NCBI GenBank assembly: GCA_002689655.1
Contig: NZHC01000136.1
Location: 1-34,062 of the forward strand
Direction: 5' to 3'
From: Rhodopirellula sp.
GTDB lineage: Bacteria; Planctomycetota; Planctomycetia; Pirellulales; Pirellulaceae
Length of the DNA: 34,062 nucleotides
Under the pieces are notes generated by a model. That model ran no database searches. It was not told the origin of the DNA and was given only the letters and a program-made list of their open reading frames with translations. Shown here piece by piece: positions 10,048 to 25,786 of this stretch. Positions within the stretch are counted from its first letter, which is position 1, and each line of letters starts with the position of its first letter. The translations under genes and the position numbers were made by a program.

Positions 10048-11745
10048 CTAGTTGGCAGTCAGCCAGCGCACTTGAAATGGCCGCATCGGAATTCCATCTC
10101 CCTGCAAGAAACGTTCCGACGCCAACTCATCATAGGCAAACATCGAATCGACTAAATCTCCTGGGATCACACGGGGGCTGTGTGTCAGGTTGGCAAGCAC
10201 AGCCAAGCGTTGTCCATCTACAGCTGTCCGGATAAAACCAAGCAGCCCATCACCCGACAGCGGTAGAACCTCCATGCTAGCCTTGGGATGAAACGCTGAC
10301 TGTGAAATTCGCACCGACAATAATCGGCGATAACCTTCAAAGACCCTACACTGCAGACCCTGCGGTCTAGCGATCACATCTTCCAGGTCCTGCCTATCAT
10401 ACTTGTGGCGATTAATCCGCCGATTCTGTCCCGTTTCACTTACCGCTCCAAGATCATTCGGAGACCCCACCAGACTGTGAAAGTAAACGGCAGGAATCCC
10501 GGGCAGAGACAACATGATTGCCTGCGTTGCGAGGAAGCATCTCGAATGATCCTGTGGCTCAACTTTGCTCGAGTCGGCAACTGCCTCCAAGTAGGTGATA
10601 TTCAATTCATAGGGACTGTCGGTACCATCCGACTGACGCCGCGTACTCACTCGCCCGCCATGCGACCTGACAATTGTCGCGAGTCGTTCCACCCTCTCCT
10701 GAGAGACAATACCTTCGAGTGGCCTGACCCCGACACCATCGTGCGATGCAGTGAAGTTAAAAAATGTCGTTGCCTCAGTAGGCGGCTGAATCGTGGACAG
10801 CCAATCTCGCAAGACACTCGTATCGGCATTGTGAATGGCATCCAGCAGCAGTGGCGGCAAACTGAATTGATACACCATGTGTGCTTCATCATGACCGTTG
10901 CCAAAATAGCTGACATTCTCCTGATGCGGGACATTCGTTTCAGTGAGCACCAAGGTTCCTGGAACAACCTTGTCGAGAATACGCCGCATCAACTTGACCG
11001 CCGCATGTGTCCGGGGAAGATGAATGCATTCAGTACCGGGCTCCTTCCACAAAAAAGCGATTGCATCAAGACGAATGATCCTGGCGCCTCGACGGGCATA
11101 TTCGACGAGCGTCTCCAGCATCAAGTACATGACGCGTGGATTCGCGTAATTCAAATCCACCTGATCAGCGCTAAAGGTGGTCCATACATTCCGTGTGCCC
11201 TTCGATGATTCAAAAGGCGTCAACAATGGTAAACTTCTTGGCCTCACAACCTTTGACAGGTCTGCCATCGGATCCTGATCAATGAAGAAGTCTTCAAATC
11301 CATCCTCGCCCCGCAGATAAGCTTGGAACCAGGCATGCTTCTGAGAAGCGTGATTAAGGACTAAATCGAACATTAAGTCAAAGTCCTGACCAAGTTCAGC
11401 GATGTCCTGCCACGTTCCTACATCGGGATCAACGGCGAGGTAATCAACGACTGAAAACCCATCATCGCTGGTGAAAGGACAAAACGGCAGCAGATGAACA
11501 CATCGGATCAACTCCTCCAAATCATGATCCAACAGAAATTGCTTTTGTGCCTGCAGCGGTGACAGCCCCGACGAGCGGACCTGATCGGCATACGTGATCA
11601 AGACCACATCACGTTCGCACCAAAGCTCATCATGCGACTGCGATTCTGGGGCCGCCGAAAGTTTCTCAAGCCCCTGAATCAAAACCTCGGGAAGTTCACC
11701 GTAGATTTGCTGAATGAGGTCACTTGTCGTTGAGTCAATTTCCAT
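10048..11745 (-). CDS. GH13_18 sucrose phosphorylase-family enzyme, probably glucosylglycerate phosphorylase
   Basis: A 565-residue cytoplasmic TIM-barrel glycoside phosphorylase, which reversibly cleaves an alpha-glucoside with phosphate to give glucose-1-phosphate. Catalytic residues are visible: nucleophile D227 in RLDAIAFLWK, acid/base E269 in LTETNVPH, and transition-state aspartate D336 in ASHDGVGVRP. Conserved segments such as VVLITYADQ, HLLPFCPFTSDDGFSV, WKEPGTECIHL and GNGHDEAHMVYQFSLPPL closely match my recollection of E. coli YcjM, a glucosylglycerate phosphorylase, better than sucrose phosphorylases proper. It is last of four minus-strand genes with two glycosyltransferases and a HAD protein, which fits turnover of a glycerate-based compatible solute. 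The subfamily is secure; the acceptor (glycerate, sucrose or other) is an inference. Confidence 0.85.
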   Translation of the reverse strand: MEIDSTTSDLIQQIYGELPEVLIQGLEKLSAAPESQSHDELWCERDVVLITYADQVRSSGLSPLQAQKQFLLDHDLEELIRCVHLLPFCPFTSDDGFSVVDYLAVDPDVGTWQDIAELGQDFDLMFDLVLNHASQKHAWFQAYLRGEDGFEDFFIDQDPMADLSKVVRPRSLPLLTPFESSKGTRNVWTTFSADQVDLNYANPRVMYLMLETLVEYARRGARIIRLDAIAFLWKEPGTECIHLPRTHAAVKLMRRILDKVVPGTLVLTETNVPHQENVSYFGNGHDEAHMVYQFSLPPLLLDAIHNADTSVLRDWLSTIQPPTEATTFFNFTASHDGVGVRPLEGIVSQERVERLATIVRSHGGRVSTRRQSDGTDSPYELNITYLEAVADSSKVEPQDHSRCFLATQAIMLSLPGIPAVYFHSLVGSPNDLGAVSETGQNRRINRHKYDRQDLEDVIARPQGLQCRVFEGYRRLLSVRISQSAFHPKASMEVLPLSGDGLLGFIRTAVDGQRLAVLANLTHSPRVIPGDLVDSMFAYDELASERFLQGDGIPMRPFQVRWLTAN

Positions 11746-11790
11746 CGAAGCATGCCATTACGAGGAGGAAGTCTGCATTACCCTTCGATG
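11743..11790 (-). other. Inverted repeat spanning the phosphorylase start codon
   Basis: Eight-base arms (CATCGAAG at 11743-11750 and CTTCGATG at 11783-11790) enclose 32 bases, and the inner arm contains the phosphorylase ATG. In the mRNA this could pair and hide the start codon. It is a weak candidate for translational control because the loop is long. Confidence 0.2.
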
Positions 11791-11916
11791 ACAAAAGTGC
11801 CAATCGACAGACAATTATCAATCCAATACTCCCGACACGATGCGTTCAGTGACACTCGTCGCATCCCCATCTTGAAAGGAATAACAAAACCAATCTGCGT
11901 TCAGAACTCGCTTACC

Positions 11917-13182
11917 TCACAAATTATCTTGACCAGTAAAGTTGGTCACGAGAGCTCTCAACTTCCGCCTCAATACACTGTAACTGAAAAATGCCTTACC
12001 AATCTCATAGTTGAAGTCAACCATCTCTTCACGATATTCTCGATCATCAATGATTCGCTGAACTTTGCTGACGACATCTTTCGTCAGGTATCCGTCCATC
12101 GCAATCACCTTTGCTCCTTTAGGTTCGATATCCGCAACGAAGATCGAATAACGATTCACGAGCACAGGTTTTCGAAAATAAAAGGCCTCCAACAAGGCAT
12201 TGCCGAATCCCTCGTAAATACTTGGATAGGTAATGAAATCTGCCTGAGAATATGCGTCAGCGAGGGTATAAATCTTGCGGCCTTCCTCCGTCAAACCACG
12301 GCGGTCACCCACTTGGTGATCACAAAGCCGAAGGTCAACGCCATGAGCGTCGGCCAACTCCCTCAAAACACTCAGGTACTCATTCCCTTCATCACCGCTG
12401 GCATGGGAGATGACCAATTTGCACTTATCATTCTTGAGTGCTGAAACCAAGGCAATCGCGTGCTCAATTCCTTTTCGCGGAACAACTCGAGTGGGTTGCA
12501 AAAACAGAATATCATCTTCACTGAGTCCAATATCTGCCCGAAAGCCTCTGGCGTAATCATCAGCCGGTTCAGGTTCATGCTCGAAATCCAACACGTTTGG
12601 CACAAGGATCGAAGATACACCACGGCGGTGTGCCAAATCCTCCTGCGCAAATGAATTGATCGTAACATTTTGGATCTGTGGCAATGCCGGTGGAAACGCC
12701 ATCCACAACAAATCCGTCACCGCTGAAACACTGAACCGGTCCCGCTCCCAATAAAAGTCATGATGGTGTGCAATTGTTGGAAATCCGGTTTCAGCAATGA
12801 AGTGTGCCAGGGCAACACCAAGCGGAATATTCATGGGAATGCACAAGGCATTTTGCACGATCAGCAGGTCAAGATCGTATCGACGCGTGAATTCATACAG
12901 CGTGCCTTTGAGATAGTCAGCCAGAGCGTAGATGCGCTGGGTCACATCGGGAGTGCGGGTCCGTGTGCCAAATGCTCGGCGATTGATCCATTCGATGTCA
13001 GGATGCCCAAAATAGGCATGAGGAACAACCATCGAAGTGTCCTCATCGCGGTCACTCAACCCCGAATACCAATGGCTGACATGTCGGTGATCCCAAAGCA
13101 CCTGCGCCCACTTAGCACTCTCAAGCGACACACCATCTGTGCCAGAAAATCGTGTACCAACAAACCCAATCTGGACACCCAT
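11917..13182 (-). CDS. GT-B glycosyltransferase (GT4-like), osmolyte cluster
   Basis: A 421-residue retaining glycosyltransferase with two Rossmann domains. The N-terminal domain begins [18 protein letters not shown], with a Gly-rich acceptor loop. The C-terminal nucleotide-sugar domain has [16 protein letters not shown] (arginine and lysine for the donor phosphates) and the E-x7-E motif in [15 protein letters not shown]. There is no membrane segment, so it acts in the cytoplasm. It lies 112 bp downstream of the HAD gene and 171 bp upstream of the GH13_18 phosphorylase. Given that phosphorylase, a role in making a glucosylglycerate-type or mannosylglucosylglycerate-type solute is plausible; planctomycetes such as Rhodopirellula baltica are known to accumulate mannosylglucosylglycerate. 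Donor and acceptor are not determinable here. Confidence 0.82.
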
Positions 13183-13294
13183 GGAGCTAATGAAACCTGT
13201 TCTGGAATTCTATTCTGTTTTTGTGATCAACCGCGATGTCTGACTTTATTATTGCAAACGCGTCGCGGCTGCATCGCTTTTTGCTGCCATGCTT

Positions 13295-14185
13295 TTAACT
13301 GATCGACAGACACTCTGGCAACTGCAGCAAGCTCGTCAGCACGAGATCTGGAGTTACCGCCTGACATCGCGTGTCGTCCTCGCGTGGACGACAACTCCGC
13401 TGATCTCCTGCAAACCAGGCAGTTCGCAAACCTGCCTTCGCTGCCGCCCACATGTCGTTTAGCATGTCATTTCCAACATAAAGAGCCTCGTTGGGAAGAA
13501 TCCCACGATTCGATAGTCCAAAAAGCAGAACCTCAAACAACCGCGGGCCTGGCTTGGCCTGTCGATAACGGTTCGAAAAAACACACAAATCCAAGTCAAA
13601 TCCAACTTTCTCCAGACGATCCTGCCCCAATAAATTGCTTACCAAGCATGGTGTGAATATTTGTGCGTTGCTAACAATTCCCAGCAAAAAATCCGCTTGA
13701 TTCAAATTCCGCAACACGTCTGCTGCGCCGGGCATCGGCCACGTGGGGTTTGCCAACGCTTCATATCTTGTTGCGACTCTCACGACCAATTCGGTCTCTG
13801 ACGGACTTGCAGTCCAACCCTTCTCCGCCAGCACCTTTCGCCAGACTTCGACGATGTCAACTTCTGGATTCGGGCAACTTGAATCACATCGTTCACGATT
13901 CAACTGCTCAACCTTCTGCCGCAACGAGTCCGGATCGGGAACGGAGACCAACTTTTCTAGCAGCTTGAATTCTTCGAGCGTTTGACCAATGAAAGCGTCA
14001 CCCCCCGCTGTGTCAGCCGATCCCACGTCACCACTGCCACTGATAACCAATGTGCCATAGATATCAAACACAACTGCTTTGATACCGGAAATTTTCTGCA
14101 GTCTCGGTTCCACATGCGTTTCCACCGGCTGCATTTCCATACGGTGGAGCAAGATACCCTCAACCCACGATTCAATTTCCATCAT
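13295..14185 (-). CDS. HAD-superfamily hydrolase
   Basis: A 296-residue HAD protein. Motif I is VVFDIYGTLV with nucleophile D41 (numbered from the start at 14185); the second catalytic aspartate of typical phosphatases is a tyrosine, the pattern of 2-haloacid-dehalogenase-like members. Motif II is GIVSNAQ, motif III the lysine in RQAKPGPRLFE, and motif IV YVGNDMLNDMWAAAKAG. A helical cap lies between motifs I and II. Tandem ATGs at 14185 and 14182 directly overlap the TGA of the upstream glycosyltransferase gene, and AGAGG lies 7 bases before the first, so translation is probably coupled. Position suggests dephosphorylation of a sugar-phosphate intermediate, but the motif I change leaves this open. 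Confidence 0.82.
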   Translation of the reverse strand: MMEIESWVEGILLHRMEMQPVETHVEPRLQKISGIKAVVFDIYGTLVISGSGDVGSADTAGGDAFIGQTLEEFKLLEKLVSVPDPDSLRQKVEQLNRERCDSSCPNPEVDIVEVWRKVLAEKGWTASPSETELVVRVATRYEALANPTWPMPGAADVLRNLNQADFLLGIVSNAQIFTPCLVSNLLGQDRLEKVGFDLDLCVFSNRYRQAKPGPRLFEVLLFGLSNRGILPNEALYVGNDMLNDMWAAAKAGLRTAWFAGDQRSCRPREDDTRCQAVTPDLVLTSLLQLPECLSIS

Positions 14186-15765
14186 CAAAGGACCTCTGTG
14201 CGGCACGGAAAGAAGGGGCGATATGTATTGACCAGATCGATACCGCGCTGTGACTCGAGAACATTTCCTGAATCAAGCACACCCTCGGAGATGCAATTGT
14301 CACTTTGTTTGCCTAAAAATTGAGTTTTGCCTAGCTGCTGATAAAGCTGAATCAATGCTTCGCCAATGCGAGTGGAGCCATAGTTTTCAGTCACTGACTC
14401 AGAATTGGAGACCAACAATGCGTTTTCAAAATCCTGATTCAAACGTGTGACCAACGTCTTTGAAAACTCCTTGGCAGCAAGTTCAAAACCACGATCATTC
14501 TCCATCCGCTGCAACACCTGAATCTGTCGTCGCGGTGTGAGCTTGGCAAAATCAAGTGTTTCAACTGACTCACTCAAAGACATGCAAATCGCTGGATGAA
14601 AAGCCTCAGGCAAATGACGCCATGCTTGCATTTGTGCATCCAAAGTCTCTCGCTGACATTCGTTGATCCATGATTTATCACCAGGGATGGGAATCGAATC
14701 ATAAAAGCTTCTCAAGTCAACGCCACAGTTTTCGAAGTCATCTGCCACAGTACTCAGGCGTCGGGCGATCACTCCTTTCCCAAGCAACCAAGGCTCAAGA
14801 AATGCCATCCCAAACCCTTCTGCAACACTGGTTGACACGACATAGTCTGCAGCTGAAATATTTTGCAGCAAAGTGAGGTCTGAACTCTCGCCGGCATCAA
14901 ATATCGTTCGATTCGAAACTTCGGCAGCGACCTGCTTCCATCGGTCGTAAGAACGCTGCTCCATGGGAGTTGTCGGCTTCAATGTCAAACCCATATAACG
15001 ATTGTCACCTCCCCACCGCGCGAGTAATAACAGTTCACCTATATTTTTCCTGCGTATCCCACGAACGGGATACAGCGTCCAACGCGCCTCACCAGGAAGT
15101 TGCAGAACTTTTAGAACCCTTTCCCTCGCATCTTCCTTGGACAAACGTTCTCCATGGGGCACTGCAACGCTGTTTGGAAGGCAATGAAGACAGTCACGGC
15201 TCACACCGATTTGTGCCAGTGCTGCCGAATCTGCCCTCGTCAGCGTTGCATAGTGAATACCGTCGTGCTGGGGATACAAATACTGATCAACCTGCCGCTT
15301 GCTCACTGCTTTCATCGCGGAGACCAAACGTCCGTAGTTCTCGGGGCGATTATCTTCTGCAAAATCGTGTACTTGCAAAAGTATTCGCCAACCCTCACTC
15401 GCCAGTGATTGAATCACCCCGGGAACAGCCGTATTCTTTCCTAGGCTGTGGTTGTGCCAATGTAATAAAGCTTGATCAATGCTCACCCCGTGATCAACAA
15501 ACTGCTGTTTCAACTCACGCAACATTTGCTGCTGACGCAGTGCCAAATCCGCAACGAGCAATACTTCAGGGTCATAGTCAAACCCATCAAGTTTGATTAG
15601 ATCAACCGATTGCAGCGTTTCCGATGAGAGGCCACTGCAGCGATCGCCGGAGGCCAAAATAATCTTTTCGCACTGCCCGGTCTCACGAATCGCACGCACA
15701 TGATTCTCGACCACCTGAGTGACTCCACCACGCTCATAATGACAGTGAAGGATCACGACGACCAC
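14185..15765 (-). CDS. GT-B glycosyltransferase, first gene of the osmolyte cluster
   Basis: A 526-residue cytoplasmic glycosyltransferase-like protein. The N-terminal domain begins VVVILHCHYERGGVTQVVENHV, the usual Gly-Gly-Val acceptor loop of GT4-type enzymes. The C-terminal domain has LYPVRGIRRKNIGELL, where arginines and lysine take the place of the R/K donor-phosphate site, and STSVAEGFGMAFLEPWLLGKG, an E-x7-E motif. About 150 residues after the catalytic core are unassigned and mostly helical. The start is GTG at 15765; no ATG lies near in frame. Its stop overlaps the HAD start, making it the translationally coupled lead gene. A glucosyl- or mannosyl-transfer step in solute synthesis is the best guess. 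The family is fairly sure, the reaction unknown. Confidence 0.78.
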   Translation of the reverse strand: MVVVILHCHYERGGVTQVVENHVRAIRETGQCEKIILASGDRCSGLSSETLQSVDLIKLDGFDYDPEVLLVADLALRQQQMLRELKQQFVDHGVSIDQALLHWHNHSLGKNTAVPGVIQSLASEGWRILLQVHDFAEDNRPENYGRLVSAMKAVSKRQVDQYLYPQHDGIHYATLTRADSAALAQIGVSRDCLHCLPNSVAVPHGERLSKEDARERVLKVLQLPGEARWTLYPVRGIRRKNIGELLLLARWGGDNRYMGLTLKPTTPMEQRSYDRWKQVAAEVSNRTIFDAGESSDLTLLQNISAADYVVSTSVAEGFGMAFLEPWLLGKGVIARRLSTVADDFENCGVDLRSFYDSIPIPGDKSWINECQRETLDAQMQAWRHLPEAFHPAICMSLSESVETLDFAKLTPRRQIQVLQRMENDRGFELAAKEFSKTLVTRLNQDFENALLVSNSESVTENYGSTRIGEALIQLYQQLGKTQFLGKQSDNCISEGVLDSGNVLESQRGIDLVNTYRPFFPCRTEVL

Positions 15766-16046: not shown

Positions 16047-18203
16047 TTATGCGAACGCGTCACGCAGAAAACGCACGATCCGGTGAAAAATTGAAGCGTT
16101 CTGCACGTCAACTCTGGCTCGGCCTGTCAGTCTTACCGGTAGCGGGGATGCTGTTGGTTCGAGCACCACTCGAACTTCATAATAAGGGTTGTACTCCAAA
16201 TCAAGAACATGCGCATCGATTCTGCCGGGGCGATGCAATTCATCAGGTATTTCCTGACTTGGTGAGGCTGCCAATTCTGACACTCTTCCACGCACCTCAC
16301 CCCGAGCGTGATCATCTAACAGTAGGTGAACGCGTTGCCCCTTCCGTATCAACTCAATCTCCTGCTGGGAAACGAAAAGCACTGCTTCACGCGTTCTTGG
16401 ATCTCCAATCACGCACACTTTCGTTCCTTCTTCCAGCCAAGCACCCGCATTGGCAGGATCCAGTGGCGTCCCAAACCAATACGCCGACTCTCGTTCACCT
16501 GCCGTGGATTCCGCCCGTTTACCAACAGCAAATACACGCCCAGCATTGGGCGCACTCAACACCAACTCGGCAGCCAACCCTTCCCGCAATTGTTGTTCCT
16601 TCTTTGCCTCACTCAAGGACCTTTCGATCACTGGAATCTGCATTCCCGCTTCACGACTCGTCAGTCGGCGTTTTCTCAATCCGTCCAACCGCACTTCAAG
16701 TTGTTCAGCCTGCCCCCTCGCTTGAACCAACTCAAGCTCGACCGACTGATTCACCAAGGTGGCAACGACTTGCCCAGCCTGCACATCAGTTCCGTTCACG
16801 ACCGATGCAACTAACCGTCCTGAGTTGGTCACAAATACAGATTCAGCATCCCCGGGTTGAATCGTCATGTATGCGGTTGTGGTTCTTGGCATGGGCACCA
16901 AACCGATCACTGCCACAGATCCAACGATCGCAGTCACCAACAAAATAGGTCGTCGCGTTTGGAAACCTATTTGTCTCCCCCGACTAGCAGGTGGCCGTAA
17001 AACCGATCGAATTATTTTAAAAAACAGCCATGCAATTGCTATTAAAGTCAGAACACCGACTGCATCTGCCATCTCATAGCTCTCTGCAAAACGATAAATC
17101 ATGAGCATGATCAAGGCAAAAATTGCGATCCTATAAAAACCACTCAGAAGCCCGTAGCCCGCCACGAGAAAGTTACGTGTCGTGAATTCAAATGTCATGG
17201 TGTTCGGTGATGTCCAAAGGAATCGCCTCGCCCATTCCCTCAAAACACCAGTTGCTTCCGCTGACAGATTGGGAATGCCAATCGCGTCAGAAAGCATGTA
17301 GTAGCCGTCATACCTCAGTAGAGGATTCCCATTGAACAGCACTGTTGTCACCGAACACACAACCACCACCGTTGCACAAACATCCCTCACGGGGCCATCA
17401 ACCGTAAAAAACCAAATCAATGCAGCCAGAGAAGCCAGAGTCAACTCGGCCAGAATACCAGCAGCTGAAATAAAAATTCGCTGCCAACGACGCGGCAACA
17501 TCCAAGCATCTGACACGTCACAATACAGACACGGCACTCCCACCAGAAACATGAGCCCAATTTCACGGCACTCGCCACCAAACCGCTTGCATGCAGTCGC
17601 GTGTGCGAACTCGTGCACAACCTTGGTGATCGACAACACGCCGAACAGCGTTATCAATCCTGCACCCGACTGCATGCGTGCTGCTGCGACAGACAGATGC
17701 TCAGTCAGTTGGCTAAAGTTCACAACTACTCCGACCGCAGCTACAAACATGAGCACGGTGGCCAGCAGAATTGCAAAAGGAGAAAAAAGAGGAAAAAAAA
17801 GGTATGATACTGAATCCAGTATCTGATCAGGATTCAAACCCGGTACGCGGATAGCCAAAGGATTCTTCCACCAAGCTCTGGGAACACCTGATTCGGCACC
17901 TGCCTCTTCCGTGCCACATCGATCAACCAGCAACAAACCTTTCCCTCGTGCGTCAGCAAAGAAACGCACGATTGACTCAACCGAGAGATACTGAGGTGCA
18001 AAACGCGTGTTACATTCGGAAGCAATTTCTGCAACTGATCGACTACCGTCCGCCAAAATCAGGATTTCCCTTTCTTGCTCACTAAAATAGGAGAATGCCC
18101 GTGACAGGGGATCTTTTACCACCCAGACGCGTTCACTTCCCATCCAGACCACTTTCTGGATCAGATCAGGACGCAACATCAATTCGCAACTCGTAGCGTT
18201 CAC
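16047..18203 (-). CDS. PqqD-like / M50 site-2-type metalloprotease / HlyD fusion protein
   Basis: A 718-residue inner-membrane protein of the putative peptide zinc metalloprotease type. Residues about 15-95 resemble a PqqD-like winged-helix domain (VWVVKDPLSRAFSYFSEQE... VAEIASECNTRF), the fold used as RiPP recognition element. Membrane helices follow at about 133-162 and 180-200, with the zinc motif H197-E-F-A-H201 and further helices; the second metal motif NGNPLLRYDG is at 291-300. After a helix at about 419-437 the chain enters a HlyD-type barrel-sandwich/coiled-coil region to the end. The GTG start overlaps the TGA of the upstream HlyD gene by four bases (GTGA), implying coupling; ATG 18179 is an alternative. 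Together with the two adaptors and the divergent TolC-like protein this suggests an envelope-spanning complex. The substrate is unknown. Confidence 0.87.
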   Translation of the reverse strand: MNATSCELMLRPDLIQKVVWMGSERVWVVKDPLSRAFSYFSEQEREILILADGSRSVAEIASECNTRFAPQYLSVESIVRFFADARGKGLLLVDRCGTEEAGAESGVPRAWWKNPLAIRVPGLNPDQILDSVSYLFFPLFSPFAILLATVLMFVAAVGVVVNFSQLTEHLSVAAARMQSGAGLITLFGVLSITKVVHEFAHATACKRFGGECREIGLMFLVGVPCLYCDVSDAWMLPRRWQRIFISAAGILAELTLASLAALIWFFTVDGPVRDVCATVVVVCSVTTVLFNGNPLLRYDGYYMLSDAIGIPNLSAEATGVLREWARRFLWTSPNTMTFEFTTRNFLVAGYGLLSGFYRIAIFALIMLMIYRFAESYEMADAVGVLTLIAIAWLFFKIIRSVLRPPASRGRQIGFQTRRPILLVTAIVGSVAVIGLVPMPRTTTAYMTIQPGDAESVFVTNSGRLVASVVNGTDVQAGQVVATLVNQSVELELVQARGQAEQLEVRLDGLRKRRLTSREAGMQIPVIERSLSEAKKEQQLREGLAAELVLSAPNAGRVFAVGKRAESTAGERESAYWFGTPLDPANAGAWLEEGTKVCVIGDPRTREAVLFVSQQEIELIRKGQRVHLLLDDHARGEVRGRVSELAASPSQEIPDELHRPGRIDAHVLDLEYNPYYEVRVVLEPTASPLPVRLTGRARVDVQNASIFHRIVRFLRDAFA

Positions 18204-19294
18204 TGGTTCACACTCAAACTCAAACGCATACCTGGCAAAATATCGAGACTGGCATTGTCAAATTCAACCCAGAAGCGGATGTCGCCGCTAACAGGCTCCA
18301 ACTCCCGGCTGATAAACTTCACGACACCCTCACGTTGCACGGTTTTTTTTTCGCTGCGTTCGATCGCCAACTGCACTTTTTGACCAACCGCAACGCTATC
18401 CAATTGGTCTGCAGTGATAAACCCTTCCGCCCGAAGTCGATCCAACCGGATCACACGAATCACCGGCTCGCCGGCTTTGACCCAGTCGCCAAGATTCCGA
18501 TACCTCTCGACAACCACACCGTTGATAGGTGACTGAATAACCTGCTTTGACGATGCCAATTCAGCAAGTTTCAACTGATGCATTTGCAGCTGTGCCTGCA
18601 ATTCCTGTACTCTTTGCTCGACTTTTGCCTGAGCTAACTCAAGAGTGTACCTGTCAACGCCCAGTTGATGACTATTGGCGGCTTCCGCCTCAGCCTCAGC
18701 CTGTAGCCCGTCAATCACACGCTCAAATTCAGCTTGTTTGGTTTCAAGTACCGTACGTTCATAACTCAAGCGAAGATTTTCGATTTCAGATTGCGAAACA
18801 CTATCAATAAACTGTCGCCTTGCCTCAGTTGCACGATTGAGCTCATTTTCAGCAACCAACTCTGCCTTTTTTGAAGCCTGCACGCTGACATCGTTCTCAG
18901 CCTTGCGATCTGCAATCTGCTGTTTAAACTCATGCTCTTTCGCAAGTTGCTTCTCTTGTGCCAACTTCTTTTTAGCAAGTTCCGCTGACAATCCACTCTG
19001 AGCATTCTGATTCGCTATTTCCAGACGTGTCTGTGCAAGGTCCTGCTCAATTTTCGTTTTCCGGTCATCCAAACGCACCAACTCATCCCCAACACTCACG
19101 GACTCACCTTCATCAACTGTGAGCACTGCAATAGCACCATCCTGTGATGCAGGGACATCCACTGAGTCAATCAAAACCACCTGCATCTCATTCACAAAGA
19201 TTGGCTCAACCGCGTTCAAACTGAGTGCCATACTTGGAACGTAGAACAGTAGCGACGGAAGAATGAAAATGAATCTGGACATGATGTTCTTCAT
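18200..19294 (-). CDS. Periplasmic HlyD-type membrane-fusion adaptor
   Basis: A 364-residue adaptor. An N-terminal hydrophobic segment (about residues 6-24) acts as signal peptide or anchor. The first half of a biotinyl-lipoyl-like barrel (AIAVLTVDEGESVSVGDELVRLD) follows, then a long alpha-helical hairpin of about 150 residues rich in Ala, Glu, Gln and Lys (about 80-235). The second lipoyl half comes next (VIQSPINGVVVERYRNLGDW), then the beta-barrel region. Such adaptors connect an inner-membrane partner to a TolC-type outer-membrane channel. It starts 18 bp after the GAF/HlyD gene and its stop overlaps the M50 gene. It has no TM-anchored cytoplasmic domain, unlike its neighbour. The internal ATG at 19282 is an equally good start. 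Assignment is firm at family level. Confidence 0.88.
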   Translation of the reverse strand: MKNIMSRFIFILPSLLFYVPSMALSLNAVEPIFVNEMQVVLIDSVDVPASQDGAIAVLTVDEGESVSVGDELVRLDDRKTKIEQDLAQTRLEIANQNAQSGLSAELAKKKLAQEKQLAKEHEFKQQIADRKAENDVSVQASKKAELVAENELNRATEARRQFIDSVSQSEIENLRLSYERTVLETKQAEFERVIDGLQAEAEAEAANSHQLGVDRYTLELAQAKVEQRVQELQAQLQMHQLKLAELASSKQVIQSPINGVVVERYRNLGDWVKAGEPVIRVIRLDRLRAEGFITADQLDSVAVGQKVQLAIERSEKKTVQREGVVKFISRELEPVSGDIRFWVEFDNASLDILPGMRLSLSVNQ

Positions 19295-19312
19295 AAATTA
19301 ATCGTCACGAAA

Positions 19313-21238
19313 TCAAAACCACGGATTACTCCGATACCACTGGATCAATCCTCGGAATACCACAAAGCCCATTGAGTACTTACCACACTCAACTTGCGCG
19401 ATCACTGTTGCCCCATCTCTGAGGTCACCCATCTGTTCGGCTTTCAGAGCAAAGGTGGCAGGAACAACTGCCTCCCCTGTCGCCGCAAGATTCGCAACAC
19501 CCGCAATTCCTGTGATTGCTCCCTGATAGGTCCGTGTGGGGTCTGAACGAAGACGAAATGAACAACGGCATGGGGTTACCCGCTGCTGCTGCAACACATA
19601 GTTGATGTGCTGTTCCGGAAGATCCAACTCAATTGTCCAACCACCGGTTTCGGAAATAACATCTAGCAGATACTGGCCGTGTGTGACGGGCCTGGACTGC
19701 AGTGCCTGGGTCAGATCCCACCGATCCACCAAGCCATCCATGGGACTGCGAATGGTCAAATTAGCTTGTTGCCTTTCCAGGAGTACCAGTTGGGCGTTAA
19801 GCCCTTCAATTTCCTTTCGAAGAACACGTTCGTCAACCGCAACTTCAGCCTCGCGTTCACGATTTGACACCGCGTTGCCGCGGGACCGCATCGCCGTCAA
19901 TGCAACAAGGCGTGTCTCCGCAGTCGCGAGAGAGCCCTCAACAGTTCGACGCTGCAAGTCCAATGCTGGACTGCGCAAATGCATTAACACAGCACCTTTG
20001 CCTACGCTCTCACCATTCGCCACCGCTAGCGCCGAAACAACCCCCTCAGTGGGTGAAAACAGGCGACTTTGCTCAGTTGCGAGAACCCGACCTTCCACAG
20101 ATAGCCGCAACTCCATGGGCACAAAGAGAGCGGCGACTGTCAGGATAACCAGCGTCACGATCGATCCTACAATTTTCTTGCGATTCGCAGGACTCCACAC
20201 TCGAGACGCGATAAGGGCCCACCCTGAGTCCTCACGCTGCAAAGCATCTCGTACAGCGTCCTCAAGCGGAGAAAGCAAGGTTTGCATTTGTTGTTGAATT
20301 CGCTCGAACTCACTCTCCGCAGCTTGGAAACGCTCTACCACAATAACAGCAACAGGTTGGTACCTTTGTGGATCGCGTACCAAACGGATATAGATTTCAC
20401 GAAAACCTGACTGGTTACAATAGATTTCAAGTGCATCCGAAACATCTACGTCAAACTCTGCCACGTTCCCAACTTGATGTTCGAACGAATCTGACTCAGA
20501 TAAGACGACCCCAACCAGTCGCTCCATCAGACGAATCTGACGCGCCCGCCGAACCACTTTTTGTTGAGCCGATGTTGTCACTAGTCGAAAACGTTTTCCG
20601 CGACATTGCAAAAGACTCACGCGATCAAATTGGCAAGCGGATGCCAGAGTCGTCGCGATCGAACCAAACGAATCAGTTAGGCCGATTCCCTGATTCAAAC
20701 CACGAATCAGGGAATCCCGATCGGTGCGAGTATTCACGCGACGCTGCAACTCTTCCAACTCATCACGCAAAACGACCGGCGCCGTAAGATCGAGCAAGAC
20801 CTCCGCCAACTCACCAATGGGTCCTCGGACACTCAGATCCAAAGGAACCTCAAAACAGAAGTCAAGCTGCAGCCAGCGGTCAGCCTGCAAGCGTTGACAG
20901 ACATTCAATCTGGATCCGAGTTCACCATCAAACCAACGGCAATGAGAGGTAAAATCAGGTGACGCCTCATTGGTGGGAATGCCGAACAATTCAGCAGGAT
21001 TTCCATCCGCTTCAGCGGCATGCAGAATAACACCGCTGCGAGCCAACAAGACCAATTCATCACTATTACCGACGGCAAGGGTGACAGCACTCGCGCGCGT
21101 TGTGAGCCGCAACCCTCCGACAAGGTCATCAAAAAACGCAGTTAGTTCAGCGTTCCCGCGGGCAGACAACTCGACTCGCTCAATCAGTGCTTCGGCGTCT
21201 TTCCAGATGCCGTCGTTGCGATGAGTTGGATTAGACAT
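19313..21238 (-). CDS. GAF-like / HlyD fusion membrane protein
   Basis: A 641-residue protein with an unusually large cytoplasmic part. Residues about 25-165 and 185-310 look like two GAF-like sensor domains (alternating strands and helices, for example FGSIATTLASACQFDRVSLLQ), followed by an amphipathic linker. A single membrane helix lies at about 356-374. The rest is a HlyD-type adaptor: lipoyl half (SRLFSPTEGVVSALAVANGE), a short helical hairpin, second lipoyl half (LTIRSPMDGLVDRWDL), and barrel. It is first of three minus-strand genes, with 18 bp to the periplasmic adaptor, and diverges from the TolC-like gene across 219 bp. A cytoplasmic signal might gate the complex; that is inference. 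The HlyD half is secure, the GAF label moderately so. Confidence 0.83.
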   Translation of the reverse strand: MSNPTHRNDGIWKDAEALIERVELSARGNAELTAFFDDLVGGLRLTTRASAVTLAVGNSDELVLLARSGVILHAAEADGNPAELFGIPTNEASPDFTSHCRWFDGELGSRLNVCQRLQADRWLQLDFCFEVPLDLSVRGPIGELAEVLLDLTAPVVLRDELEELQRRVNTRTDRDSLIRGLNQGIGLTDSFGSIATTLASACQFDRVSLLQCRGKRFRLVTTSAQQKVVRRARQIRLMERLVGVVLSESDSFEHQVGNVAEFDVDVSDALEIYCNQSGFREIYIRLVRDPQRYQPVAVIVVERFQAAESEFERIQQQMQTLLSPLEDAVRDALQREDSGWALIASRVWSPANRKKIVGSIVTLVILTVAALFVPMELRLSVEGRVLATEQSRLFSPTEGVVSALAVANGESVGKGAVLMHLRSPALDLQRRTVEGSLATAETRLVALTAMRSRGNAVSNREREAEVAVDERVLRKEIEGLNAQLVLLERQQANLTIRSPMDGLVDRWDLTQALQSRPVTHGQYLLDVISETGGWTIELDLPEQHINYVLQQQRVTPCRCSFRLRSDPTRTYQGAITGIAGVANLAATGEAVVPATFALKAEQMGDLRDGATVIAQVECGKYSMGFVVFRGLIQWYRSNPWF

Positions 21239-21398
21239 TGAAATTCGTTGGCAATGTTACGTCAAGAAAATCGGCACTGTTGGTAAATCGAACCCACTTC
21301 CTATGGGCATCGACCAACTGCTTCGTGGAACATCATTTGTTTCACGCTGTTCCCTAAAAGTTACCGCATTTCCGCCCGTTTTGATTGGACTGACTGCA

Positions 21399-21425
21399 AC
21401 GATTAGTACGAAAAAAACGATTAGT
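21399..21425. promoter_or_regulatory. Direct repeat in the divergent promoter region of the export locus
   Basis: ACGATTAGT occurs at 21399-21407 and again at 21417-21425, 18 bases apart, in the 219-bp region between the divergent GAF/HlyD and TolC-like genes. It is a possible two-site binding element for a regulator of either gene. There is no independent support. Confidence 0.3.
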
Positions 21426-21457
21426 GGGGTCTATAACGGCTGCGGCAGCGAGTACCG

Positions 21458-23338
21458 ATGGGCACCTCAAACAGCAAAGCATGGCTTGAAATCTCGGTGA
21501 ACCAGATTCCAACACCTCCGAAACCTCGTAAAACGTGGCAAACATCAGTTGCCGCGTTCGCGTGCATGGTGACTGCAATAGGTCTTTCTGGATGCCGCAG
21601 TTACCACAACCTTCCTGAAACAATCGGTAACCGCACTGACAACATTGACAGGCTCATGCAGCGAGTAGATGCCGGGGCGCCTGCAGAGAGTATCAGTGAA
21701 CTGCCAGCGGCACCTTTCACGCTAAAGCGTCCGGAGGATCTCGACGCAGCAACCTACCGCGACATGACGCTGGACGAGGCCATTCGATTGGCCATCGAAA
21801 ACGGAGAGGTCCTGCGCAAGTTGGGCGGAATGATTCTCACTGACCCCGAAAGAATCTACACCGAACAAACAATCCCGCTTCAAGTCACTGACCCGCAAAC
21901 CGGTATTGAAGCAGCCTTATCAGCATTCGATGCAAATTTGTATGCCTTTGGCAAGTGGCAGAATAATGACCGCCGGTACAACAACCAATTCATTAGTGGC
22001 GGTGCGGATGCATTTCAGCAGGACACCCACGACTATGTGCTGCAAATGTCGAAATACACGGCGACAGGAGCACAACTGGCACTACGCAGCATCACCGACT
22101 ACGACGCCAATAACGCCACAGGCAACATCACACCCAGTGCTTGGCAGACACAGTTCCAAGCTGAGCTGCGGCAGCCACTTCTGCAGGGAGGTGGGCTAAC
22201 CTTCAATCGCATCGCGGGCCCGGGTTCAGTGCCAGGCAATTACAACGGAGTGTTGATTGCCAAGGTCAACAATGACCTGACAGCGGCGGAATTTCGACAA
22301 CAGCTAAGGGATTACATCAGCGATGTAATCACCGCGTACTGGGATCTTTACTTTGCCTACCGTTCCTTGGACTCGAAACGCGATGCCCTAGTGCGCAGCC
22401 AGACAACATGGCAGAGTTTTGCAGCCCTGAAGAACAACAACCGCCGAACCGGTACGGATGAGGCGATGGCACGTGAACAGTACTACCGATTCAAATCAGA
22501 GGTCAATGACGCGATCTCTGGACAGCTTGGTGTACAAACGATGGAACGAAACCTGCGACTGTTGATTGGCATCAGGATCACCGATGGGGTACTGCTGCGA
22601 CCTGCTGATGAACCGAACGAAGCACCGATGGTATTTGACTGGGACTCCATTGCAATTGAAGCAGTTCAACTTCGCAGCGAATTACAACAAACGCGATTGA
22701 AGGTCAAACGCAGCCAGATGGAAGTTCTCGCTGCAAAAAATTTCCTGATGCCGCAACTAGATCTTGTTTCGACCTATCGTATTCGTGGTCTGGGTAAGAA
22801 TCTGGCGGGAGATAACAGCGCATTCCGTCAACTTGGAACAGGCGATTACCAGGAGTACGAAGCCAGCGTCGAACTACGGATGCCCGTAGGGTTCCGCCAA
22901 GCCCATGCCGCAGTCCGAAATGCACAACTGAAAGTGCAACGACAGAATACACTGCTTCGTGAGCAGGAGCGACGAATCCTGCGCGACTTGACCAATGATG
23001 TTGTTGAATGCGACCGCGCCTACGTTCAAATGCAAACGAACATGAACCGCTACCTGGCAGCAACAGACGCTCTGAAAGGGATGGAAACCAATCGTGATAA
23101 TGGGCTGCCCATTAGTTTGGAACAGTTGCTTGACGCTCAACGCCGTGCCAGTGAAGCGCAGACCAAGTACTACCTGTCGCTTTCGCAATACGCAATTTCA
23201 ACAAAGAATGTGCAATATCAGCAGGGTACCCTGCTACACGCCATTCATCTGATGGTACTTGATGAGCAGCCCGATCCGATTCTCATGGAAGACATACTTC
23301 CAGAAATCGTTCCAGCCACTGCGCCCTCCAACCCTTGA
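21458..23338 (+). CDS. TolC-type outer-membrane efflux lipoprotein
   Basis: A 626-residue outer-membrane channel protein of the TolC family. A lipobox ends in LSGC with cysteine at residue 46 from ATG 21458, or 33 from the in-frame GTG 21497; the GTG start would give a more usual signal peptide (Lys/Arg-rich n-region, then a hydrophobic core). The body contains the paired helical regions expected of TolC, for example MTLDEAIRLAIENG early, AELRQPLLQGGG marking the first strand, YISDVITAYWDLYFAYR, AQLKVQRQNTLLREQERRI and LPISLEQLLDAQRRASEAQTKYYLSLSQYAIS near the end. It diverges from three genes for HlyD-type adaptors and is probably their outer-membrane exit duct. The family is clear; the exported substrate is unknown. 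Confidence 0.88.
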   Translation: MGTSNSKAWLEISVNQIPTPPKPRKTWQTSVAAFACMVTAIGLSGCRSYHNLPETIGNRTDNIDRLMQRVDAGAPAESISELPAAPFTLKRPEDLDAATYRDMTLDEAIRLAIENGEVLRKLGGMILTDPERIYTEQTIPLQVTDPQTGIEAALSAFDANLYAFGKWQNNDRRYNNQFISGGADAFQQDTHDYVLQMSKYTATGAQLALRSITDYDANNATGNITPSAWQTQFQAELRQPLLQGGGLTFNRIAGPGSVPGNYNGVLIAKVNNDLTAAEFRQQLRDYISDVITAYWDLYFAYRSLDSKRDALVRSQTTWQSFAALKNNNRRTGTDEAMAREQYYRFKSEVNDAISGQLGVQTMERNLRLLIGIRITDGVLLRPADEPNEAPMVFDWDSIAIEAVQLRSELQQTRLKVKRSQMEVLAAKNFLMPQLDLVSTYRIRGLGKNLAGDNSAFRQLGTGDYQEYEASVELRMPVGFRQAHAAVRNAQLKVQRQNTLLREQERRILRDLTNDVVECDRAYVQMQTNMNRYLAATDALKGMETNRDNGLPISLEQLLDAQRRASEAQTKYYLSLSQYAISTKNVQYQQGTLLHAIHLMVLDEQPDPILMEDILPEIVPATAPSNP

Positions 23339-24286: not shown

Positions 24287-25786
24287 TTGCTAGCATCAGG
24301 GAATTCAACAACAGCTTTCAGGTTCAAGGAAACGATCATCCGACTCTACGCAACGCTGACCATTACGGTGATTTTCTGTCCCGGCCCTCAATTCACTTAT
24401 GGAAGCAGCGGTCGCCCAAACATTCTATTCATTCTCGATGACGATCAGTGCTTTGATACGATCCGTGAATTGGGTACCACCGAGATACAAACGCCGCACC
24501 TCGATGAATTGGCACGGCGGGGTACCACCTTTTCGCATGCCTTCAACATGGGCTCGTGGAGCGGAGCCGTCTGTGTTGCCAGTCGCACGATGTTGAATAC
24601 AGTTGCCAGTCGCACGATGTTGAATACAGGACATTTTATCTGGAATGCCAACGCGGTTCACTCAAAATCTGAGCAGGAGCGGCAACAAGGCCGTTGGTGG
24701 AGTGAATACATGAAGGAGGCCGGTTACCGAACTTACATGACTGGAAAGTGGCAGTGCAAAGCTAATGCAGAAAAAGCTTTTGATGTCGCCCGGGATATCC
24801 TTCCCGGCATGCCCGAGGCGACCGCGGCGGGATACAACCGGCCAGCGGCTGATGGCACGGATCCTTGGTCCCCCTCTGATCCAAAATTCGGTGGATTCTG
24901 AGAAGGTGGCACGCATTGGAGTGAAGTGGTGGCGAACCACGCTCAGGACTTCATGGCAGATGCAGCCGAAAACGATTCTCCTTTCTTCATGTACTTGGCA
25001 TTCAACGCACCGCATGACCCCCGCCGGTCACCCGCTGAATATGTGGGCCGATACCCAGCAGATTCCATCCTGATTCCAGATAACTTCAAACCCCATTATC
25101 CCTACGCGAGTGAGATTGGCTGCGGAGATAGATTGCGAGATGAGCATATTGCCGCCTTTCCGCGAACCCAGAAAGCAATTCAAGTTCATCGACAGGAATA
25201 CTACGCGATCATCACACACATGGATGAAATGATTGGTCGCATCCTCAAAGCTCTCGAGGCATCTGGCAACGCTGAAAACACATGGATTTTCTTTACGGCA
25301 GACCATGATTTAGCAGTGGGGCAACACGGTCTGCAGCGTAAACAGAATATGTATGACCACAGTGTCCGCGTCCCTTTCATCGTTGTGGGCCCCGGTGTCG
25401 ACGCGGCGAAAAAAATTGCCGAGCCGATCTATCTCCAGGATGTCATGCCCACCACACTGGGAATAGCGGGTGTCAAGCATCCTGAACACGTTGAGTTCAA
25501 TAGCCTTTTCCCTCTGCTTGATGGTGCCACCAGCCCCTACAACAGCATCTACGGCTGTTATCTTTCGAAACAGAGAAGTATTCGGACAGATCGATACAAA
25601 TTGCTGGCCTACCCGGATGCTAAGGTACTGCGGTTGTACGATCTCCAACGGGACCCAACGGAGAGGCACGATCTAGCTCAGCAGGCAAAGATGAAACCTG
25701 TCGTTGCTTCGTTGTTTCGCAGCCTGATTGCCTTACAGCGAAAAATGAACGACGATCTTGAACTCAGTGCACTTGCACGACAGTAA
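24287..25786 (+). pseudogene. S1-family sulfatase broken by an in-frame TGA and a 27-bp duplication
   Basis: Two open segments (to 24901 and from 24902) lie in the same frame and together form one sulfatase of about 499 codons. Metal-binding and catalytic segments are recognisable: FILDDDQCFDT near the N-terminus, the nucleophile region WSGAVCVASR (C-x-A-x-R instead of the common C/S-x-P-x-R), and FTADHDLAVGQHGLQRKQNMYDHS late. TGA at 24899-24901 follows PKFGGF where relatives, from memory, have Trp before EGGTHWSEV, so a TGG to TGA change is likely. A 27-bp tandem duplication directly after the active-site motif inserts nine residues. No ATG exists before the signal peptide; only TTG 24287 is available, while AAGGA sits 7 bases before ATC 24338, a possible mutated start. 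Decay is likelier than recoding. The original role was presumably sulfated-polysaccharide breakdown. Confidence 0.8.
24575..24628 (+). repeat. Exact 27-bp tandem duplication in the sulfatase gene
   Basis: Positions 24575-24601 and 24602-24628 are identical. The unit is a multiple of three and encodes VASRTMLNT twice, so the arginine of the active-site motif and the following helix are repeated. Complete identity suggests a recent event. Confidence 0.97.

Follow-up and report, generated by a model that had tools for sequence, protein, structure and literature searches.

A pump-less planctomycete M50/HlyD/TolC locus that probably spans the envelope in the secretion of giant surface proteins

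A locus in which a secondary SecA (SecA_DEAD) gene accompanies HlyD, M50 and GAF genes was published by Kamneva, Poudel and Ward in 2015 (PMC4452313); the passages of that paper drawn on here propose SecA as the ATPase and the M50 protein as the membrane part, call the role of the locus completely unknown and name no substrate. Here we analyze a four-gene locus of a Rhodopirellula sp. genome, situated on a stretch of 34,062 nucleotides (contig NZHC01000136.1 of assembly GCA_002689655.1; this whole stretch is hereafter the window), which encodes a protein with PqqD-like, M50 site-2 protease and HlyD parts (the M50 protein), a free HlyD adaptor, a GAF-HlyD protein and a TolC-type outer-membrane lipoprotein (Table 1). 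As far as those passages describe it, the published locus resembles the window in its M50, HlyD and GAF-HlyD genes, its planctomycete members, its lack of an ATP-binding cassette (ABC) gene and, in some loci, its outer-membrane factor (OEP) gene, but it differs in that the window's SecA is unlinked and its TolC gene adjacent and divergent. In the window the M50-HlyD, HlyD and GAF-HlyD genes stand together (GAF by family), and the genome has secondary SecAs at other sites. That work already made the pump-less set known; what is new here are giant leader proteins as proposed cargo, and matching SecA and M50 clades.

We propose, with a probability of roughly 70% and on the basis of sequence comparison, that the locus encodes those components of a secretion system that cross the envelope, and that this system exports giant surface proteins. 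The cargo would begin with a positively charged N-terminal stretch followed by the motif LExRx[LV][LF][DSAN][AG], mostly without a hydrophobic core of the Sec type; its identity and its leader are suggested by co-occurrence and linkage. The leader would be bound by the PqqD-like domain of the M50 protein, a role that PqqD/RRE domains have elsewhere, and would be cut by the M50 site, the residues of which are intact; the chain would be pushed by a SecA-like ATPase, here probably the one encoded on contig C111 of the source genome, to which co-inheritance and linkage point. Judging from protein families, the TolC lipoprotein and the free HlyD adaptor would form the conduit together with the HlyD parts carried by the M50 and GAF proteins, and the GAF domains may, at a guess, sense a cytoplasmic signal. 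The particular substrate of the window is the least certain step, because its own locus has no adjacent cargo gene.

One draw of 148 Planctomycetota genomes, each at least 90% complete, was searched four times. A profile of the M50-HlyD protein matched 43 of them at E<=1e-20 (M50-positive genomes), and the LEPR-8K leader model (NCBIfam NF012209) exceeded its curated cut-off in 25, of which 24 were M50-positive (Fisher p=6e-15); the association held in 21 of 22 genera, in 12 of 12 families and, outside the window's class, in 16 of 17 cases. The leader model also exceeded its cut-off in one of 14 control genomes. DUF4347 was found in 11 of the 148 genomes, ten of them M50-positive (Fisher p=1.6e-5), with E below 1e-20 in seven, all M50-positive; in five genomes (G004, G027, G069, G092 and G144) its gene lay within about 8 kb of an M50 match.

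Linkage was compared between 59 stretches of up to 20 kb, covering 59 of the 69 M50 matches outside the source genome (not covered: two matches each in G052 and G139, three of G124, G077, G084, one of G027), and 60 control stretches at mostly round coordinates in genomes of the same M50-positive set. The M50 stretches were chosen after the DUF4347 and SecA results over the 148 genomes had been seen; one stretch fetched around a SecA gene (L223) was excluded from the count, and in three others (L201, L206, L233) the picking of open reading frames (ORFs) showed no adaptor or M50 gene. At E<=1e-8 the M50 profile also touches 6 of the 60 control stretches and is not specific at that level. A leader ORF was defined as one of at least 200 aa, outside the core families, with [LM]E.R.[LMFVA][LMF] in its first 160 residues. 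Such ORFs occurred in 15 of the 59 M50 regions, at least one of which (L215) looks like chance, versus 5 of the 60 control regions (p=0.011), and those with a visible length of at least 1000 aa numbered 11 versus 2 (p=0.007); the backward motif gave 1 in M50 regions versus 6 in controls. Among 18 leader ORFs picked by pattern from the 59 stretches, position +7 was D, A, S, N or T in 17 and position +8 was A or G in 14, both positions lying outside the search pattern; in a wider set of 44 leaders, which includes 17 chosen by eye from named loci and one adaptor ORF in L196 that is probably chance, the counts were 44 and 35. In the wider set the 40 residues upstream of the motif carried a median net charge of +5, these upstream parts being uncertain as ORF starts were set mechanically.

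The initial annotation saw no ABC, RND or MFS pump; that nothing powers the system was not supported, since a SecA-like ATPase is a regular partner of the set, present in 20 of the 59 M50 regions versus 0 of the 60 controls. The corresponding tally over genomes (147 of 148) was dropped because canonical SecA matches too. In the source genome (G000) SecA_DEAD exceeded its cut-off in three proteins, a canonical-looking SecA (contig C40) and proteins of 827 aa (C145) and 579 aa (C111); the latter two are secondary SecAs, and neither lies in the window. In an M50 tree built by a quick method, the window copy grouped with L096, L097, G065 and G078 (support 99), and in the SecA tree the C111 protein grouped with G065 and G078 only (100/100); the window's clade has the identical genome set {G000, G065, G078} in both trees. 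For three other M50 clades the SecA tree holds a clade made up of identical genomes (12 sampled genomes; Fisher p per clade 0.002 to 0.008), with the exception of one G144 copy that was not fetched for the SecA tree; the clades were chosen after the trees had been seen, and part of the agreement is due to kinship, though less in the case of the window's trio, whose members come from two families. The clade-matched SecA lies near a DUF4347 giant in G000; in G065 it lies near an LExR leader frame, about 2000 residues long, that at 15.8 bits stays under the LEPR-8K cut-off. These matching clades and the linkage to leader giants make the C111 SecA the strongest candidate for the motor of the window's set.

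Between the SecA gene of C111 and the divergent giant gene stands a gene of 324 aa. The open frame of the giant is 3339 residues long and contains DUF4347 and repeats of DUF5649, with LESRFVLDASA as its N-terminal motif. The 324-aa protein (L018, 9811-10785) has no Pfam match. The first 500 residues of the giant were not matched by NF012209, which also found nothing in the whole source genome at E<=0.001, an E-value that this 24-position model hardly reaches. An open frame of 10,245 residues runs from base 1 of contig C28 (L063); it has DUF4347 and, close to where it becomes visible, the motif LEIRQVLAAA, but the contig may end before the true start is reached. A LEPRxLL pattern searched in the DNA of the genome pointed to ORFs on C62 and C119, its 8 matches versus 11 for a backward control carrying no weight alone. 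The C62 leader scored 18.6 bits in the genome search, over the cut-off, and 16.1 of 17 bits as a protein, and the leaders on C111, C28 and C119 were identified by motif only. Candidate cargo in this genome thus comprises the DUF4347 giants of C111 and C28 and the LExR-leader ORFs of C62 and C119. A second M50 set is present on C61, with no TolC gene seen beside it. In the DUF4347 sequences of L018 (11043-19901), L304, L307 and L308 an SHG stretch precedes a (G/A)C(D/N/E) stretch, a pattern reminiscent of clan CD cysteine peptidases; situated beside the leader, DUF4347 may act as a self-processing domain. A search of DUF4347 against solved structures returned one match (E=0.27).

By tblastn, the M50 protein was matched in 76 plasmid records. 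Of the 40 matches listed, 17 on proteobacterial plasmids, chosen for variety, were inspected, 14 of them annotated, and a giant gene or frame was found upstream of the machine genes in 15, E. coli included: 12 of the 14 annotated loci have a gene of more than 3000 residues in the same direction, and each of the three unannotated loci has an open frame longer than 2000 residues (one locus is present in near-duplicate, as H35 and H36). The annotated giants are named as calcium-binding, Ig, LamG-like, beta-strand-repeat, tandem-95, DUF4347 or LEPR-XLL proteins. Six N-termini of the 12 annotated giants were read and all six carried the leader motif, three with LEPR-8K over the cut-off and the other three with DUF4347. 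A SecA-profile match was present in five plasmid loci (H8, H13, H16, H19 and H23). The E. coli version consists of the giant, TolC, an adaptor, HlyD and M50-HlyD, with SecA not nearby, and was matched in 24 of 5426 E. coli genomes, 22 of which cover 80% or more. On E. coli and Citrobacter plasmids (L302, L317) the SecA-free version stands beside a giant Ig-like protein, in E. coli with DUF4347.

Composition was also followed over 80 named M50 loci, many of them on short contigs. M50 was recognized in 74, HlyD in 60, GAF-HlyD in 53, a leader ORF in 17, DUF3467 in 16 and SecA in 6, one of these six a fragment; that the genes form a set is supported by the two adaptors, and more weakly by TolC of the window's kind, which is near in only 8 of the 80. 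Five loci (L100, L103, L128, L169 and L144, the last being Rhodopirellula baltica BR-MGV) are laid out as TolC (-), then GAF-HlyD, HlyD and M50 (+), then a leader ORF (+), which is the window's layout plus a candidate cargo gene. Besides GAF-HlyD, HlyD and M50, the loci L177 and L179, from the window's family, hold a leader giant with about 2500 residues visible; in L177 TolC is on the same strand. The small DUF3467 protein (L015 7455-7871; also L298, L301, L311 and L316) stands beside machine genes and, on plasmids, between cargo and machine genes; it is a possible chaperone.

The initial annotation had described the four genes as one divergent unit, and this was borne out: all four ORFs are present where it had placed them, with the expected Pfam families, tight spacing and intact protease residues. 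The GAF-HlyD and HlyD genes are separated by 18 bases, the HlyD and M50 genes overlap by 4, and the TolC gene starts about 220 bases from this three-gene minus-strand operon in the opposite direction. HlyD_3 and HlyD_D23 were matched in both the 364-aa and the 641-aa protein, and Biotin_lipoyl in the former; the N-terminal segment of the HlyD adaptor reaches a hydropathy of 2.44 over 12 residues. All 20 aligned M50 relatives keep the HExxH motif and the aspartate of NPLLRYDG, and H197, E198, H201 and D299 do not vary in any of three alignments (20, 45 and 20 sequences, plasmid copies being among those of the third); the zinc-ligand role of D299 is one that we assume from M50 proteases generally. 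The AlphaFold2 model of the M50 protein (mean predicted local distance difference test score, pLDDT, 82.7) places HExxH and the distal aspartate in helices, which would lie in the membrane. Its C-terminal HlyD part had chains of MacA, EmrA, AcrA and MexA as best Foldseek matches; the Foldseek matches listed were membrane-fusion proteins, and thus gave no confirmation of the GAF and PqqD folds. In the window's M50 protein the PqqD-like part is matched weakly (TIGR03859, E=0.0027, residues 45-91), and GAF has no Pfam match in the window's GAF-HlyD protein itself; the two labels hold for the families, because Pfam matches PqqD (PF05402) in 18 of 45 aligned M50 relatives at E<=0.05 and GAF in 35 of 46 aligned GAF-HlyD relatives. 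The model of the GAF-HlyD protein, with secondary structure read by eye, has two alpha/beta stretches, a long helix and then the HlyD part. The M50 protein is a putative leader-binding inner-membrane protease plus adaptor.

Several observations weigh against a secretion system for giant leader proteins. At the locus itself, no motif ORF of at least 100 aa occurs in the window or on L016, the rest of its contig, and the orthologous loci L096 and L097 have no adjacent giant leader gene (L096 has one chance-like antisense motif ORF). Among the sampled genomes, G087 is LEPR-8K-positive without M50, and 19 of the 43 M50-positive genomes have no LEPR-8K match over the cut-off, some of which may reflect the sensitivity of the model, because it misses the C111 giant; DUF4347 matches are weak (E about 1e-7) in three M50-positive genomes (G001, G025 and G070), and G029 has DUF4347 (4e-16) without M50. 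The local enrichment of leaders in Planctomycetota is modest: without the five DUF4347-linked loci L192-L196 it falls to 10 of 54 versus 5 of 60 (p=0.09), and at least one (L137) of the 17 leader ORFs in the named loci is probably chance. Of 39 assessable leaders, three have a hydrophobic stretch upstream (12-residue hydropathy >=1.8; for comparison, 2.4 for the window's HlyD and 2.2 for its TolC). As to the motor, several M50-positive genomes show a single SecA match, in a search that missed a divergent adjacent copy in L212; several M50 clades, among them L177/L179, L217/L220 and L185, have no partner clade in the SecA tree; and a SecA-profile match is absent within the 8-12 kb flanks of 12 of the 17 plasmid loci, E. 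coli included. Plasmid loci H5 and H26 have no giant upstream.

That the set instead matures and exports a small ribosomal peptide (a ribosomally synthesized and post-translationally modified peptide, RiPP, of daptide or epipeptide-like kind), which the PqqD-like domain binds, M50 cuts and the adaptors pass on, is unlikely. PqqD-like domains are found in RiPP enzymes, and the M50 part matches the daptide model NF041824 (176.6 bits, residues 24-399) and NF058609 (41.9 bits), but both scores lie below the cut-offs of 300 and 225. DUF3467 (17 loci in this comparison) was the only short family often recurring among ORFs of at least 100 aa in the named loci, a size below which precursors would escape, and it is giant genes that travel with the set. 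This reading is close to that of the initial annotation, whose peptide cargo was not supported, giant proteins with a common leader being the more probable cargo.

An ordinary tripartite pump, the ABC, resistance-nodulation-division (RND) or major facilitator (MFS) transporter of which is encoded elsewhere and the M50 protein of which is an accessory, is similarly improbable. Its adaptor and TolC parts all resemble tripartite systems, and unlinked pumps are common in general; in the window the HlyD adaptor and TolC factor are both present, and Pfam found no ABC, RND or MFS family, be it an HlyB-type ABC transporter or an adjacent RND/MFS transporter, in 20 scanned ORFs. The scan of relatives covered 207 of 287 flanking ORFs, each complete and 150-999 aa long, in sets of 103 and 104, with 25 families listed per set, so that single cases may escape. 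OEP was counted 7 times, MFS_1 3 times and POT 3 times; ABC_tran and ACR_tran were not among the families listed, which leaves them at most about one protein per set. An ABC ATPase cluster lay within 10 kb in five named loci (in L129 on the same strand and just upstream), and a type I ABC system was seen 3-5 kb from the set at plasmid locus H26. No pump family recurs beside the set among those listed, and ABC and RND pumps are not its regular neighbors, as the initial annotation had expected; SecA does recur. Still less credible is a signaling device without export, in which GAF senses, M50 performs regulated intramembrane proteolysis and the adaptors act as periplasmic sensor: GAF domains and site-2 proteases are typical of signaling, but the presence of TolC and adaptors together with linked SecA and giant surface proteins speaks for secretion, the 25 families listed per flank set include no histidine kinase and no sigma/anti-sigma family, and GAF was not matched in the adaptors of E. 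coli L302, the one SecA-free plasmid locus scanned. Under the preferred reading of giant-protein secretion, "pump-less" holds locally, giant proteins, not peptides, are the probable cargo, and the motor is probably SecA-like, its gene often lying at another site of the genome.

Table 1. Features of the M50/HlyD/TolC locus in the window.
Feature	Position	Strand	Basis
PqqD-like / M50 site-2 protease / HlyD fusion, 718 aa	16047..18203	-	Pfam M50 E=1.5e-8, HlyD_3 E=5.4e-10
C-terminal HlyD / membrane-fusion part of M50 protein, about residues 438-703	16095..16892	-	Pfam HlyD_3
NPLLRYDG motif of M50 protein, D299 the likely third zinc ligand	17304..17327	-	D299 invariant
HEFAH zinc motif of M50 protein, residues 197-201	17601..17615	-	invariance in alignments
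N-terminal PqqD-like domain of M50 protein, about residues 1-94	17922..18203	-	TIGR03859; PF05402 in relatives
Periplasmic HlyD adaptor, 364 aa, hydrophobic N-terminal segment	18200..19294	-	Pfam HlyD_3 E=2.1e-20
GAF-HlyD protein, 641 aa: GAF-like N-terminal half, one membrane helix, HlyD	19313..21238	-	Pfam HlyD_3, relatives, model
GAF-like N-terminal half of GAF-HlyD, residues 1-345	20204..21238	-	model; GAF in relatives
Divergent intergenic region, probable shared promoter region	21239..21457		gene ends
TolC/OEP outer-membrane factor, lipoprotein, 626 aa	21458..23338	+	OEP E=1.6e-16; TIGR01844 E=2.3e-13, below cut-off
Lipobox-like LSGC of TolC protein, residues 43-46	21584..21595	+	sequence

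Elsewhere in the window, positions 10048-15765 (minus strand) encode a sucrose-phosphorylase-like enzyme, a mannosylglucosylglycerate-synthase-like glycosyltransferase (242.7 bits, cut-off 640), a HAD phosphatase and another glycosyltransferase, possibly for compatible-solute metabolism; this cluster was rejected as a functional partner, being common to L096 and L097 only among the named loci. A sulfatase is split over two ORFs (24287-24901 and 24926-25786) that hold its N- and C-terminal parts apart, and is either a pseudogene or a sequencing error.

More broadly, and only tentatively, the locus may belong to a widespread, unnamed type of secretion, in which an N-terminal LExRxLL leader would be read by a PqqD-like/site-2 protease/adaptor protein, a SecA-like ATPase would replace the ABC motor, proteins of up to about 16,000 residues would leave via TolC, and a DUF4347 branch (E. 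coli plasmids) would manage without a dedicated ATPase. No explanation was found in the literature for the surface arrival of giants without an evident Sec signal, in planctomycetes and many proteobacteria; a named leader, motor partner and protease make both giant-protein export and the role of the secondary SecA testable. If true, the system would also exemplify an intramembrane protease that forms part of a conduit.

The initial annotation's remark that no substrate is defined agrees with the literature searched: among open-licence papers, preprints excluded, we found no published tie of a LEPR-XLL leader or of any substrate to this machine. In the parts consulted, LEPR-XLL occurs solely as an annotation in PMC10868602 and PMC9611531, once on a Vibrio giant protein, and the terms HlyD, TolC and M50 are absent from those of a review of polymorphic toxins (PMC3482391). 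The LEPR-XLL / LEPR-8K family (NF012209) shares with the proposed cargo its motif and its very long proteins, some over the cut-off, but NCBIfam names the domain only, and several leaders near DUF4347 fall below the model. With the daptide M50 metalloprotease (NF041824) the window protein has a homologous N-terminal and M50 region, but it differs in scoring below the curated cut-off and in its extra HlyD domain. Type I secretion (HlyB/HlyD/TolC; LapBCE) has HlyD-type adaptors and a TolC-type outer-membrane factor in common with the window, and the Lap system likewise carries large surface proteins as cargo. Unlike type I secretion, in which the signal is C-terminal, the window has no ABC ATPase, its machine includes an intramembrane protease, and the leader proposed for its cargo is N-terminal.

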